In this document: positions 10,933 to 45,200 of the stretch, in pieces
How the letters are laid out: each line of letters opens with the position of its first letter
Numbering within the stretch: the first letter of the stretch is position 1
NCBI RefSeq assembly: GCF_040436345.1
Contig: NC_133230.1
Location: 11,976,197 to 12,040,196 of the forward strand
DNA length: 64,000 bases
From: Pagrus major
Taxonomy: Eukaryota > Chordata > Actinopteri > Spariformes > Sparidae
Reading direction: 5' to 3'
Translations under genes and position numbers: made by a program
Notes under the pieces: model-generated
Seen by the model: the letters and a program-made list of their open reading frames with translations, nothing else
Told to the model about the DNA's origin: nothing
Database searches by the model: none

Positions 10933-13355
<2,423 letters not shown>

Positions 13356-13568
13356 ATGGTCGTGCAGGACATCCAGCAACAAGAAGTGTGCCGGCAGCAG
13401 CGGGCCACCCCTTACCCCCATCCTGGATCATCTTCTCTGAGGCAGAGTTCTGTACTCAAGGACTGGCTTATGCTGATTAAAACCCATCGCAAAAGTTTTC
13501 GCAGGAAAAAAGAACTACGTGGCATTGTCACTTACCTGAATCACATGACAGTGCTTCTTCTCAGTTAA
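13356..13568 (+). other. In-frame open 3' UTR segment after EEF1A copy 1 (70 codons, conserved basic peptide)
   Basis: Directly after the TGA the same frame begins again with ATG and stays open for 70 codons to a TAA at 13566-13568. An internal ATG at 13470 starts MLIKTHRKSFRRK, which is also encoded after copy 2 and, shortened by two codons, after copy 3. The stretch could be a translated downstream ORF, a rare readthrough tail, or an RNA element that happens to be open. The stop context TGA-A is not the known strong readthrough context (TGA-CTAG). That the frame is open and matches between copies is seen directly; translation is inference. Confidence 0.55.
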
Positions 13569-13647
13569 GTTTTAAGTTGGAAATGGTTTAGAACTGTATC
13601 TTGATGTTAAAATGCCACATTAATTGGAAAGAAAGCTGCTGGTAACT

Positions 13648-13658
13648 AATAAAATAAA
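13648..13658 (+). terminator. EEF1A copy 1 polyadenylation signals
   Basis: Two overlapping AATAAA hexamers (13648-13653 and 13653-13658) lie about 300 bases after the stop. Copy 2's promoter elements begin only about 145 bases further on. Confidence 0.8.
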
Positions 13659-13801
13659 TGTCTTTGAAAAAATTGAAATTGGCTTGTCTTTATCCTTTTT
13701 AGTGCTGCAGTTGCTTTAGTTCTTGGCCGTCACAGGCGAGCTTCTGCTGTGATGCAGCTGTTTTTGACCATGCTATCTGTGTGCCGTGATACACTTTTCA
13801 G

Positions 13802-15062: not shown

Positions 15063-21656
<6,594 letters not shown>

Positions 21657-21863
21657 ATTCTCATGCAGGACGTCCAACAAAGTGTCGTGTCTCAGCAGCA
21701 GCGGGCCGCCCCATCCCCTCTTCTTCCCTGCCACCCAGCGCCGTCTTCTCTGAGGCAGAGCTCTCTACTCAAGGACTGGCTTATGCTGATTAAAACCCAT
21801 CGGAAAAGTTTCCGCAGGAAAGGAAGGCTTGTGCCTTTTAGGGGAAACTATGATCATAATTAA
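21657..21863 (+). other. In-frame open 3' UTR segment after EEF1A copy 2 (68 codons)
   Basis: The EF-1 alpha frame continues open after TGA to a TAA at 21861-21863. It shares with copy 1 the block SSLRQSS(L/V)LKDWLM followed by LIKTHRKSFRRK. Within the 26 shared codons the copies differ at four sites, three of them synonymous and one Val/Leu. An internal ATG lies at 21783. Whether it is translated is not shown by the sequence. Confidence 0.55.
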
Positions 21864-21877
21864 GTTGAAACCAAAAC

Positions 21878-21883
21878 AATAAA
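21878..21883 (+). terminator. EEF1A copy 2 polyadenylation signal
   Basis: AATAAA about 220 bases after the stop, shortly after the conserved 3' UTR block. Confidence 0.75.
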
Positions 21884-22126
21884 AATCTTAAACATTGCCA
21901 AATGAATATGTTTCTTTGTTGTTTCATTACTATTTATTGATTGCAAACTAGCTGCATTCCTTCGAAAGCTTCGAACAAGCACAGCAGAGTATATTCTCAT
22001 TATAATAAAGGAGTATATGAATGTGCTTTTTGATATGTATATAGTTAATAGTTACAGAGCTACAAATGTGTTTTAAAAAGAGATACCAGGTGTAAACGGT
22101 GTGGCAGAAGTTTTTAAGGAGTGCCT

Positions 22127-23066: not shown

Positions 23067-28078
<5,012 letters not shown>

Positions 28079-28216
28079 ATTCTCATGCAGGATGTCCAAC
28101 AAAAAGTCACGTCTCAGCTACCATCCTCTCTTCATCCCAACACAGTCTTCCGGCTTATGCTGAACCATCGCAAGAGTTTCCGTCGGAAAGGAAGGCTTGT
28201 CTATTATGACAATTAG
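28079..28216 (+). other. In-frame open 3' UTR segment after EEF1A copy 3 (45 codons)
   Basis: The frame stays open from the TGA to a TAG at 28214-28216. It starts ILMQDVQQ, as after copy 2, and ends MLNHRKSFRRKGRLVYYDN. Relative to copy 2 two codons are missing after ATG-CTG, which keeps frame. The HRKSFRRKGRLV block differs from copy 2 at five nucleotides, all synonymous. Confidence 0.6.
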
Positions 28217-28230
28217 GATGAAATCAAAGT

Positions 28231-28236
28231 AATAAA
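28231..28236 (+). terminator. EEF1A copy 3 polyadenylation signal
   Basis: AATAAA about 150 bases after the stop, just after the conserved 3' UTR block; the 3' UTR is the shortest of the three. Confidence 0.75.
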
Positions 28237-28639
28237 AAACTTAATCAAACCAAGTGAAGATGTTTCTGTCCTTGTTCCACAAATTTTGTCCTTTTTTTAT
28301 GAACATCATTTACCAATCTGTAAGCAGCTTTTGACAATCTTTAGACGTCTTTCACTCATTTTTGTTCTTAACTCAAGAAAAGCAATGTTTGCATTTCACA
28401 AGAGCACAAACTTTTAACGGTTCTACTCCAATCCATGCTCTAAGTGGAAATTTACTTACACTTGGTGAAGACTTCATGAAGAGGTTGTAGATCATTGAAG
28501 ATCATTGTACACATTTAGCAAACAGACTGTACATAAACAATCAGAGACTCATATTTACACAAAGTCTGGTATTAAATAAATTATCAATTTTGTCTAATTG
28601 TCACATGTATTCTACAAATGTAGATTTCCCTCCATAATA

Positions 28640-31637: not shown

Positions 31638-34521
31638 ATGGACGGAGAAGACAGAGATGTGAACCTCAGAGAGGGCAGTCCGGCTGAAGCACGGCAGCGA
31701 ATACCCGACGCCAGAAGAAGGTCGAACACTCCTCAGCTCACACCAGCAAGACAGAGACTGAAAGTTCAGCAACAACAAGCAGGTAGAAATCTGAAAACAC
31801 CTGGAATCTTTTTGTTTGCACTGTTTCTGGCTGTCGATTGTTGAAATGCTTGTAATTCTTTTGGAGATCTGGAGGAGTTGTTGATCTTGTCTCCTCTGTA
31901 ATGTCCACTTTATTGAATCACAGAGGAGGGACCCAGAGTGGTCGAGGAACCGGTCTCCGTCTCCCCGGAGCTGGCCAGCTGGATCAAAGTCAACGCCAAA
32001 GACCTGAAGATCCGGCAGACGGACCGCCGCTGGGCCGCAGAGGTGGTTAACGACTTCAGAGAGAACCTGCTGAAGTTCCTGAGGAGCAGCAGCGATCAGC
32101 CTTTCTTCCAATCAGCTGAATTCCTCACCACCGGCAGCTACTTCGAGAAAGTGAAGGTATATTTTCTACTGCAGATATTCTTCTTGCACACTCGTACAGT
32201 TTATAACGATTGCCTGCCTGAAACCAGTTGCATTAATTGCCTGAACACCGTGTCTGTGTGTTGAATCTCTGTTCTCCTGCCTCAGATCCACAACCCCGAT
32301 GAGTTCGACATGATGCTGAAGCTTCAGGCCCCGTCGCGCCTCAACATGACGGAGCTCGACGCCGGCCTCTTCTACCGCCTCGATTTTGCTCGGCCGACCC
32401 GGAGCCCCGTGCAAGTCTTTCTGCTTGAGAATCAGCGCACGCTTTCATCCAGCAAGGTCCTGACTGAGATGTTTCGCCTCGTCCGCAAGTTCCTCAAGAC
32501 CTACAAAGGTGGGATCACCGTGTGTTATCATTTTGAGCCAATCATGTGATTTCTCTCTCTTCATTCTGCTGATGTTTTATATTTTGTCTACCACACGATC
32601 GAGCTACTAAAGGCGCCTGTCTGTTTTCACTCTTCTTTGGCTCCAGTGCCTGACGACTGCTGTCGCTGGGAGGTGAACAGGAAGCGTCCGAACTCTCCGG
32701 CTGTGACTTTATCTCTGTTCAGGACTGAATCCAACAGTGACGAGCTGATCTCTGTGGACGTGGTTCCTGCTCTGGAGGTAAACATTATGTCTGTACAGTT
32801 TTAAAATGACAGACACGACTGAAAAGATAAAGGAAATATGGAGAATTTAAATCATCACAAACCAGTTTATCGCTGCAACCTTAGCAGTGGTATAAGTAGT
32901 CATATCTGTAAAAGCAGCAGCAGTAATAGTGGTAGAATGAGTATTTGTATGGATGTTGTGTACTGATGTGATGGCAGCGGAGGCATTAATATGATGTGAC
33001 TTAACATTTGCCCTTGTTCCTGTATGGAGGTTCACCCCTCTCAGGGCTGGCCGCTCGCTGTCCGTAACGGCCCAGATGTGGACAACTGGCTGGGAAAGAA
33101 GGCTCGCCAAGAAATCAAAGGTTTACCCATTTACTTTGTACCGAAGAGGCTCAAAGGACGAAACCTCAGTGAGGAGGCCAAAGGTAGAGAAACTTCTGTC
33201 ACCTCTGAGGTTCAGATATGTGGGACTTTAATTCACGTGCCATTCATCTTATACACAACTCCAGTGTGAGTGTTTGTGTACCTGTACGGTGAAATCAGGG
33301 TGTTGTGTCTTTCTGTAACAGAGAGCTGGAGGATTTCTTTCTCTCACGTCGAGAAGAAAATCATCACGAGCCACGGCAACAAGAAAACCTGCTGTGAGAG
33401 CAACGCCACCAAATGCTGCCGGTGAGTCACTTTATTCTCACATCGTCCCAATTTCTTTGTTTATCTAATCTTCCTGTTAGCTGTGGAGACCGTAAGCTAA
33501 TGTGGTAGAAGAACGAGTTATCATTTTTGAAAAGGAAAACATATAAATGATAAATGATCCATCTTCTCTCTGGCAGTAAGCAGTGCTTGATGCTCCTCAA
33601 GTCTCTGATTGAGGGCCTGAAACAACGTTTTCCCAAACAGCTGGAGGACCTCTGCTCGTACCACGGGAAAACGGCCTTCCTCCACACCCTGTCCATCAGG
33701 TAACGTCTTTACTATCATCCAGATATCAGGATTATCAGAGCAAGACTGGAAACAGTAGCGCCGGTAATGGTTGAACAGCACAATGTTGCTCCGTCACTGC
33801 TGCATGTGTAAATAAGCTTATTATATCAACTTAAAAGGTAATGATATGTCAAATTTGTGTTCATAACGTGTTTCTGCTGCCCCCAAGTGGCCAAAAGAGT
33901 CAGTTATTGAAGGTTTATAAATGTATCTCAATGGACTAACAGATCACAATTTTCTTGCTATTTTCTGACATCTGAATCTTAAATTGATCAATAAATAACA
34001 TTATAATTAATAAATTAATTAATGGCACAAATAATCAGGATTGGTTTAGTAGCACTGAATATAAAAACTACTAATAGAAATCTGTATCATAATCTGACAT
34101 CTTTCCCTGCGTCTCGCCTCTCAGGTTCAACGACGCCATGTGGGCTCGTCAGCAGCTGCCTTCCTGCTTCCTGCACCTCCTCGGGGCTCTGGAGGACCAC
34201 GCACGCAGAGGCGTCCTCCCTCACTTCTTCGTCCCCAGCTGCAACCTCTTCTCCACGGCCGTCTTCCCCAAGAGAGCGCTGGCTTTCCTCGTCAACGCCC
34301 TGGAGGAGCAGAGGAGGTTAGGCCTGCCCCTGCTGAAGCCTCCTGCTCCTGTCCCATCGATGATGAGACTAATGAGTCCTTCAGCAGATTTACCCACAGA
34401 GATGTCTGCAGAGAAGTCACCAACACTGACTGCAGTTTACTCTCTGGACACTGCACTCGTGAATAAACTGGTCGTAGTGGTTGCTGTAGCTTTGGTTTGT
34501 GTCCTATTTCTGTGTAAGTGA
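31638..34521 (+). CDS. cgas: Cyclic GMP-AMP synthase (cGAS), 501 aa, with hydrophobic C-terminal tail
   Basis: Coding exons: 31638-31782, 31924-32156, 32286-32508, 32647-32777, 33030-33183, 33322-33421, 33577-33699, 34125-34521. cGAS senses cytosolic DNA and makes 2'3'-cGAMP, which activates STING. The nucleotidyltransferase GS motif is [10 protein letters not shown] (117-126); the metal-binding acids are E132 and D134 in EFDMM, and D238 in ISVDVV. The zinc-thumb residues H313, C319, C320 and C327 keep the spacing of human H390/C396/C397/C404, and S356-Y357 match the human nucleotide-stacking SY. The basic N-terminus is short (about 65 residues against about 160 in human). After the usual C-terminus the frame continues about 65 residues and ends in a hydrophobic run, [16 protein letters not shown] (485-500), flanked by Lys484 and Lys501. 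Mab-21 paralogues were considered, but the zinc thumb identifies cGAS. Fish can have two cGAS genes; which this is was not resolved. Confidence 0.92.
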
Positions 34522-42296: not shown

Positions 42297-45200
42297 CTAT
42301 GCTGTGATGATTTGTGAAGGGGCCACACTGCTCTCTCTGCTCCGGTTCTTCTGCTGCTGCTCCTCGTTGGCGGGGGTGTTGCGGTGCTGCTGCCGACGTG
42401 GCGCGTGGCGAGGCGGAAGGGTCAGGGTGCAGCAGGACACTCCCACCGTGGGCTCGGGCAGATCCTCCGCCCTGGACCAGCTGTCTTTGGCCGGGTCGTA
42501 CTTCTGGACGGCTGCCTTGTAGCGCTTCTCCGCCTCGTTCCAGCCCCCCAGGAGGAACAGCTTCTCCCCCAGCGGGGACAGACCGGCGGTGCTCACGCCG
42601 AGCGGCAGAGGGGCGGCTCGGCTCCACGTGTTGCTCTCTGGAGAGAAGACCTCCACGGAGAGGACATCCACCCGCTCACCTCTAGGCCCCAGCTGGCTTC
42701 CACCAACCACATACACCTTCCCTCCGAGGGTGGCGGAGCAATGCCATCCGCGAGGTGTCTCCAGGGAGGTGGTCTCCATCCAGGTGTCGCTCTCCACCTT
42801 GTAGCACGCCACAGAGCGGGAGTAGGCGCAGTTGATGTACCCTCCGGTCACCAGGATGTCTCCAGAGGGCAGGGTGGCGCTGGAGTGGCAGCAGCGGGGC
42901 ACCTCCATGGGCGCACGCATCTGCCAGGTGTTGGAGGAGGGCAGGTAGCTCTCGGTGGTGGCCAGCAGACCCTCCACGTTGCGTCCGCCAATGGCGAACA
43001 GGCGGCCGCCGCTGGCTGCCAGAGAGAAGTGGGTGCGGCGCTGACGCATGCTGGCCAGGTGGAGCCAGGTGTTGAAGCGAGGGTCGTATCTGGTGGAGGC
43101 AAAGGGCAGAGGGAGAGTCATGTTTAGAGGGGTTCATCCAGGGCCCGGTCGCCAACCAGCACCAACCTCAAGTGACTCTGGGTAACGTGGCCTCCTGAAC
43201 GGTTAACTAAAGGTTCTGTAAACTTTAACTTCTCATGCAGCTCCCCGAAAACCTGACAAGTACTAGAAAACAATATATTTTTATTTATATATTCTAACAG
43301 GTAAGATCTGACCCTTCCTGTCCTCGTACCTGCTGAGGGTGCTGACGGCGTGTTTGGCCTGGTTGCGGGCATCGTTCTGGTCCTCTCCTCCGGCCACGTA
43401 CAGGAAGCCGTCCATCACGGCCACACACTGGTTGAAACTCTTCGCCGGCAGCTGGGTCTGGTGACGCCATGAGGCGCCTCCTTCACGAGGGTCCCTCCAC
43501 AGCACCTGTGCCCCGAGGTCAAAGGTCAGCGAGGGGTTTCCTTGAGTTTCTTGTAGTGAATAAAGATACACAGAGCACTGACCTCGCGGCTGAGAGCTCT
43601 CTCAGTGAGTGATGGTCGACCTCCGATGGTGAGCAGAGTCTGCTGACTGGCGCGAACCTGCGTGCGACGGGACTGCAGTGTGTTCTGCTGGTAGGGCAGC
43701 AGGTGGTAGTTCATCGCGTCCACCAGGAGGCGGTGACACTGCGGGTCCATCATCATGCGGGGCACCGGCTGGATCTGACTCACCAGCTCGCTGGCCGGGA
43801 TCGTCTCGAAGCGGATGTGAGACAGGAGCTCTGCGGCGTGAGCCTGACGAGAGGCGTCGAAGTCGAGCCACCTCATGGCCAGCTGGAGGACAGAAACGAT
43901 CCCAGTGAGGAGGACAAAATGTAACGTGATGTTTTATGATTGTCTTTGTATCACATATTTTACAGCGTATCTCAGTATATTCATGTTCTGAAGTCGGGCC
44001 CTGACAGACTCACATGTGGTCCAGTTTATAAATACAACTATCACTGCTTCCCTACAGCTGCTCGTCTATTTAGGCTCTGTAATGGAGTTGTATATTAATA
44101 AACTTTTACGTACAGTAAGTTCCACTTGGTGGTTTCTGATCACAGTCGACCTGCATGCGAATAACTTTGATACATGGAACTGTGTTTTGCTCTCGGCAGC
44201 TGGTCTGAGGTCTGTTTTTAGGCCCGGATGAAAATAGCAGGAATGTCCAGAGGGTCGACGAGTTAATCCTGGAGGCAGCGGTCGCCTCCTAGAAGACCTG
44301 GCTGGTCTCCTCAGCGAGGAGTGTTGTGTACTCAGTAACTGATCGCTAGAATCTTTTGAGTTGAATTTGGATTGACGGAAAAGTAATTCAGAAGCTGACA
44401 GCTCATCAACCTAAATTTAAACCTTGAGTTTGACCTCTGACCTGGAAGGCGGTGACCTCTGAAGGCAACAGCAGCGTGTCGTCCTGCAGGAAGGCACAGA
44501 TCTGCTCCAGGGTCAGCTGGGTGAACAGCGGCGTGTCGGCGAACTGCACAAAGTTCTCCAGGACGAAGCGGCGGGCGGCGTCGCACACGGGCAGCAGGCC
44601 GTAGGCGGCAGCGATGTTCCAGATGTAGACGCAGGTCTGCACGTTGAGCTCGGCCAACAGGAAGTCCATGCACATCTTGAGGAGCTGAGGGATCTGCAGG
44701 GTGGCGGCGGCAGAGGCGGTGCATCCGATGGTGTAGAGGGACATGTGGACGCGACCCAGGTAGGCGAAGGTGATGACGTTGGCCAGGCCTGCAGACAGAG
44801 GGGACGAGAGCGAGACAGACGTTTATTCAGCGCTCAAATGTTAGCTGAACATAAATGTAATTGTTAAATATACAGTTGAACGGTGTACCTAGAGGTGAGA
44901 GCGAGGGCAGCTCCAGACGCTTCATGCCCGGGTCTTTGGCCAGAATCTCTCTGAAGTACTGACTGACTGAGGAGATGACCAGCTTGTGGACGTCAAAGGC
45001 TTTTGTCTTACAGGCCAACTCCAGGTCAGTCAGAAACCTGAGAGGAAGAGCAGGCGGACACACAAGTTGAGACAATTTTAAGTATATAGCCCGCTTTTTT
45101 TGGGGTACAATAAATTGGAAGACTACGTTTCTGTAAGTGCCAGAGTTTTGTGTGTTTTACTTATTTATTATTTATTTATTTACATATTGTAATTGTATTC

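Follow-up and report, generated by a model that had tools for sequence, protein, structure and literature searches.

The window analysed here, a 64,000-nucleotide stretch of Pagrus major contig NC_133230.1, contains three tandem EF1A genes, which we call c1, c2 and c3; EF1A copies elsewhere in the genome are labelled C15, C1, C21 and C19. The initial annotation had reported that the TGA of c1 is followed at once by an ATG and by 70 open codons up to a TAA, with equivalent in-frame stretches behind the other two genes. Rereading of the sequence confirmed this arrangement for c1 and placed in-frame stretches of 68 and 45 codons behind c2 and c3, with the motif HRKSFRRK in all three. The features of the three tails are as follows.

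13234..13355, + strand: last coding exon of c1, ending AAG AAA TGA
13353-13355, + strand: TGA stop of c1
13356..13568, + strand: c1 in-frame extension of 70 codons (13356-13565) plus TAA (13566-13568)
13458..13472, + strand: KDWLM segment of c1
13485..13508, + strand: basic core HRKSFRRK of c1, 43 codons past the TGA
21654..21656, + strand: TGA stop of c2
21657..21863, + strand: c2 in-frame extension of 68 codons plus TAA
21798..21821, + strand: core HRKSFRRK of c2, 47 codons past the TGA
28076..28078, + strand: TGA stop of c3
28079..28216, + strand: c3 in-frame extension of 45 codons plus TAG
28166..28189, + strand: core HRKSFRRK of c3, 29 codons past the TGA

The c1 extension begins ATG GTC GTG and contains KDWLMLIKTHRKSFRRK, and HRKSFRRKGRLV is present in the tails of both c2 and c3. 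Downstream of the EF1A array, an ORF on the + strand (window 34138-34518) has a match to Mab-21_C (Pfam E 1.1e-9); as cGAS-like genes presumably adjoin EEF1A1 in human, this may be a conserved EEF1A1 neighbourhood. A second ORF, on the - strand (window 42297-43118), carries several Kelch repeats (Kelch_1 E 6.4e-39) and has the appearance of a KLHL-like exon.

We searched the genome (785,883,843 bases in 25 contigs) with an EF1A exon as the query, an approach that gives a lower bound on gene number, and recovered at least seven EF1A genes, three of them in the window and a single one on each of C1, C15, C21 and C19. A last-exon query returned the same seven. The core H-R-K-S-x-R-R-K is found in the EF1A frame in five of these seven genes, 29-47 codons past a TGA and on three chromosomes. 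The two unlinked carriers, which had not been seen when the locus was first annotated and serve as an independent check on the tail, continue past their stops in an open and in-frame manner as MLCYSADPKVSQGRTSVIQLHPTIGYFNVIIKDWLIITMHRKSIRRKEKTSRSLRRHS (C15) and TLCWAVAPSAHHGRRHLLHTIVSVWSIITMHRKSRRRKKNKYHIVGD (C1). The stop codon is TGA in all five block-bearing copies. The block was absent from the C21 and C19 loci in a six-frame scan, which also found no out-of-frame core there; a single unrelated stretch of basic residues turned up in the C15 locus. The C21 copy, which we take to be a putative eef1a2, ends in TGA and has a 17-codon extension without the block. The C19 copy (18578851-18579225) is a divergent EF1A, its 78-residue exon being 69% identical to that of c1; it ends in TAA and also lacks the block.

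Comparison of the five block-bearing copies narrowed what is common to the tails. The ATG immediately behind the TGA is present in c1 and C15 but is not a general feature, being replaced by ATT in c2 and c3 and by ACG in C1. We therefore rejected a downstream ORF starting at this codon, as three of the five copies do not contain it. KDWL is likewise present in c1, c2 and C15 and missing from c3 and C1. Searching the genome itself with the block pattern matched c1, c2 and C15 and one place on C5, and we regard the C5 match as chance because a backward control alone gave three matches. Degenerate patterns for the core and the block had no match in three scans of viral sequences, and no match was obtained in phage and plasmid sequences. 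The core pattern matched 22 bacterial or archaeal sequences, none with KDWL in a flank, and we read these matches as chance. In human, the EEF1A1 3' UTR presumably contains the motif MITMHRKTFRRKGE in frame, with 40 codons before its HRK, which accords with the initial annotation; we treat both as leads.

To assess constraint on the core, we compared its eight codons across the ten pairs that can be formed from the five copies. Read in the EF1A frame, the core contains 28 synonymous and 7 non-synonymous codon differences, small counts drawn from related copies whose pairs are not independent, so that the statistics on the core are strong indications rather than proof. All seven non-synonymous differences fall at codon 5, which encodes F in c1, c2 and c3, I in C15 and R in C1. 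In the other two sense frames, 0 synonymous differences were accompanied by 30 and 31 non-synonymous ones, and in the antisense frames the corresponding counts (synonymous plus non-synonymous) were 4 + 31, 16 + 15 and 0 + 30. A codon-type pattern of substitution behind the stop is thus seen in the CDS frame only, across five copies of one genome. We also permuted the columns of the core alignment 1,000,000 times, with smaller runs in agreement. Seven invariant residues out of eight were reached in 8 runs, the synonymous fraction in the EF1A frame was matched in 13 runs, and the best of the three frames was matched in 166 runs. When a single tandem copy was combined with C15 and C1, the permutation gave P values of 0.016 (c1), 0.001 (c2) and 0.0006 (c3), and the three tandem copies alone gave P 0.0005.

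We then calculated Nei-Gojobori proportions pooled over the ten pairs, using the EF1A 78-aa exon of the same copies as the reference. The core had pS 0.651 and pN 0.066 (0.600 and 0.000 with codon 5 left out), and the exon had pS 0.549 and pN 0.115. One pair, C15-C1, goes the opposite way, with a pS of 0.10 in the core against 0.60 in the exon. Chance similarity, or a relic of recent duplication, might be considered for a small motif in related copies that was picked for its conservation. However, the two copies found afterwards (C15 and C1) agree with the tandem ones, the permutation results argue against chance, and neutral sequence should have drifted, because the synonymous proportions of the exon between copies on different chromosomes are 0.57-0.66; we consider this account very improbable. 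From these data, the core is very probably conserved as a peptide. The excess of synonymous change that was proposed as a sign of coding is seen in the core among the five copies of this genome, and the proposed conservation of amino acids in the EF1A frame is borne out for this genome, with added support from C15 and C1. It does not extend over the whole 70-codon stretch: as judged from sequence, the clearly constrained part is about eight codons, HRKSxRRK. For the block from KDWLM onward, it is this core that carries the signal, while KDWL is not a constant part of it (two of the five copies do not have it).

The initial annotation had named a constrained RNA element as the main alternative to a peptide. 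Such an element, a hairpin or protein site acting in stability, localisation or processing, would make the open frame incidental. Several observations are in line with it. The tandem copies could form a UUUCC/GGAAA triloop hairpin; the c3 stretch is somewhat stable (z -2.44), its fold being equalled by 2 of 200 shuffles; within the core, CAT, CG in the first two Arg codons and the final AAA are unchanged in all five copies; and C15 and C1 have few synonymous differences. Against this, across the five copies the hairpin loses 6 of 25 cells, which by our reading of the alignment fall in C15 and C1, and no pair is changed on both sides. Its pairing holds in 76% of cells compared to 48-72% when the position is slid, and a shuffle control is uninformative here because the 3' arm is invariant. 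The consensus fold of the five copies (RNAalifold) has no pair inside the block, and single-sequence folds of c1 (z 0.37) and c2 (z -0.12) were unremarkable relative to shuffles. Compensatory change, which would have pointed to RNA structure, was therefore not seen in the block, either in the hairpin or in the consensus fold. An RNA signal should hold back synonymous change as well, yet the pooled synonymous positions of the core are as variable as those of the EF1A exon, and the block showed no conserved fold. An RNA element is therefore disfavoured as the main alternative, and we regard it as quite unlikely.

Searches for known RNA families gave a similar picture. No Rfam model matched at its gathering score anywhere in the window. 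Under lax settings there was no match at E up to 5 in the c1 and c2 tails (13300-13700 and 21640-21900), and none at E up to 1 in the C15 and C1 loci; the c3 region (28050-28300) had six matches, all below the gathering score. Two C/D-box snoRNA families match the - strand at 28062-28139 with 28.9 and 23.6 bits against a gathering score of 55 (E 0.001 and 0.0004 when 251 bases were searched), probably by chance. Rfam includes SECIS models, and none was among the matches for the window or for the lax searches of c1, c2, c3, C15 and C1. Selenocysteine recoding of the UGA was rejected, as no SECIS appeared in any Rfam search of the window or the copies. A splice route around the stop was also rejected, since the one possible acceptor identified by eye in c1 (TCTGAGGCAG) would shift the block into another frame. 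A weak nine-pair helix was drawn by RNAalifold a few bases behind the stop (alignment A2 columns 14-47, -0.4 kcal/mol), with a positive covariation term; three of its pairs are changed on both sides and several are broken, so that its support is poor. A stem at this position could in principle aid readthrough.

We next considered the sequence that separates the core from the stop. The linkers are 43 (c1), 47 (c2), 29 (c3), 39 (C15) and 30 (C1) codons long, and in all five block-bearing copies the path from TGA to core keeps the EF1A frame and is free of stops. An open path says little by itself, because shuffled sequence is often equally open: under dinucleotide shuffling, the probability of an open path to the end of the core was 0.17 for c1, 0.27 for c2, 0.49 for c3, 0.22 for C15 and 0.30 for C1, and a stop-free linker alone is expected by chance with a probability of 0.20-0.56 per linker. 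That five different linker lengths preserve the same frame has a probability of (1/3)^5 = 0.004 if the copies are independent, which the tandem ones are not fully. Between c1 and c2, the linker in the EF1A frame has pS 0.30 and pN 0.16, a difference that is not significant (P 0.08), and pN exceeds pS in both remaining frames. When linker and core were aligned together without regard to frame, 100% (c1-c2), 87% (c2-c3) and 71% (c1-c3) of the sequence fell in phase, and 54-76% in the seven pairs that involve C15 or C1, indicating no peptide-level conservation of the distant linkers. Together, the amino-acid-level pattern of change and the frame that all five copies share across five linker lengths exceed chance.

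The main rival explanation for how the core is reached is a separate short downstream ORF that would start at an ATG before the core and encode a basic peptide of 18-32 residues independent of EF1A. An in-frame ATG does lie 1, 3 or 5 codons upstream of the core H in all five copies, at one place in the tandem and at another in the unlinked ones, and amino-acid-level constraint on the core is what such a peptide would require. However, the context of this ATG in the tandem copies, CTT ATG C, is poor by the Kozak rule; KDWL, which lies upstream of the tandem ATG, is also common to c1, c2 and C15; and a downstream ORF does not predict the open linker in the EF1A frame that all five copies have. 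In contrast, a free linker with a fixed net frame is the prediction of UGA readthrough into a short functional motif. Because the linker varies yet stays in frame, we favour readthrough over a separate downstream ORF, which appears unlikely. The original proposal of either a downstream ORF or a rare C-terminal extension thus gains amino-acid-level constraint in this genome, and of its two forms we prefer the extension.

On balance, we think it probable, if by no great measure, that the core is reached by readthrough of the UGA and acts as a tail. The data suggest that ribosomes sometimes read past the EF-1 alpha stop to make a functional tail, with the 3' UTR of EEF1A1-type genes encoding a short basic C-terminal motif in the EF1A frame that selection would maintain at the peptide level. 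A few of the ribosomes would pass the UGA and cross the linker, where sequence would hardly matter but frame would, to yield EF1A with a basic tail. The level of readthrough would be low, because the stop context is UGA A rather than the efficient UGA_CUAG (the four bases after TGA are ATGG in c1, ATTC in c2, ATTC in c3, ATGT in C15 and ACGT in C1, and CUAG follows UGA in none of the five block-bearing copies), but the very heavy translation of EF1A would compensate for this. Several observations count against this explanation: the stop context just described; the core pS of 0.10 for C15-C1, which also fits RNA constraint; the P of 0.016 that c1, C15 and C1 alone give; the weak linker signal; the variation at codon 5; and the ATG close before the core in every copy, which a downstream ORF would require.

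Of the proposed steps, what the tail does is the least certain. Like the AMD1 C-tail, it might act on the readthrough ribosome or its product, either by causing a stall within the exit tunnel or by marking the product for degradation. A tail that retargets EF1A is another possibility, in which the basic motif would direct the protein to the nucleus or to a membrane, or serve as a kinase site with its S flanked by basic residues. Counting His, 6-7 of the 8 core residues are basic, a free linker followed by a short conserved motif fits a linear sorting signal, and LDHB and MDH1 gain a peroxisomal signal by readthrough (PMC5868278, PMC12802902). On the other hand, the tails had no Pfam match at the curated cut-off (three weak matches, E 0.058-0.17) and the c2 tail had no match in PDB, and we hold retargeting to be a minor prospect. 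By analogy with known systems, we instead favour arrest or degradation of the readthrough products, possibly with feedback on EF1A synthesis. The near-cognate tRNAs in competition with release factor are brought in by eEF1A, so that readthrough at its own stop could be a sensor that limits EF1A synthesis. In this feedback loop, plentiful eEF1A with near-cognate tRNA would increase passage of the UGA, the HRKSxRRK tail would stall the ribosome or be destroyed, and EF1A output would fall, by an arrangement that would predate the split of fish and tetrapods; we offer the complete loop as speculation that is unlikely to hold in every part.

EF-1 alpha is one of the most abundant proteins of the cell, and few mRNAs of animal cells are translated as heavily as that of EEF1A, so that even very rare readthrough would give many tailed molecules or stalled ribosomes. 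If the readthrough tail is real, a central translation factor joins the few vertebrate genes with conserved readthrough tails, and the EF1A tail would tie in with the published stall on EEF1A2. EEF1A1 may have escaped notice because reads from its many copies map ambiguously. A literature search for the tail as peptide or DNA strings found no paper with them, and titles and abstract openings, drawn mostly from outside subscription journals, contained no report of EEF1A1 readthrough, a result that does not establish its absence from print.

The closest known system is AMD1, in which readthrough into a conserved tail leads to arrest through a clamp of K117, R121 and F124 and a hook at R125 (PMC13025110). 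The EEF1A tails resemble it in being conserved in-frame ORFs behind the stop of a housekeeping gene and in being rich in Lys, Arg and Phe-type residues. The AMD1 tail is 127 residues long and arrests the ribosome at its second stop, its key residues being the last ones (PMC13025110), whereas the EEF1A tails have 45-70 residues, and 8-19 codons separate the core from a second stop that varies between copies (TAA in c1, c2 and C1, TAG in c3 and TGA in C15). Candidate arrest residues are thus not found directly at a conserved second stop as they are in AMD1; F at codon 5 is not retained in C15 and C1.

Closer by descent is EEF1A2. In the sections of PMC13025110 that treat the stall survey, aggregated ribosome profiling places stall peaks past the CDS of EEF1A2, MAPK10 and SACM1L in both human and mouse, with raised nucleotide conservation just upstream of the stall. 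There, EEF1A2 belongs to the genes with footprints behind the CDS, outside the 12 genes picked by readthrough evidence (PMC13025110). EEF1A1 is not named in these sections, and as the survey excluded ambiguously mapped cases (PMC13025110), we infer that it was dropped by this exclusion. The likeness is that of a paralogous gene with ribosome peaks past its CDS (PMC13025110, same sections); the difference is that in P. major the C21 copy, the putative eef1a2, has the 17-codon extension and not the block.

Other systems share single features with the EF1A tail. LDHB, MDH1, MAPK10, SACM1L and VDR acquire a C-terminal addition by reading the stop as sense. Several functional readthrough genes use UGA_CUAG, and the cases in the available part of that source do not include EEF1A1 (PMC5868278); the block-bearing EF1A copies do not have this context. 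Counting against an EF1A tail, a study that used mass spectrometry to look for readthrough peptides across 28 human primary cell types lists LDHB and MDH1, but not EEF1A1, in its section on readthrough (PMC12802902). Downstream ORFs, finally, resemble the EF1A tail in having coding potential within a 3' UTR, but their frame can differ from that of the main ORF, whereas all five block-bearing EF1A copies keep it.
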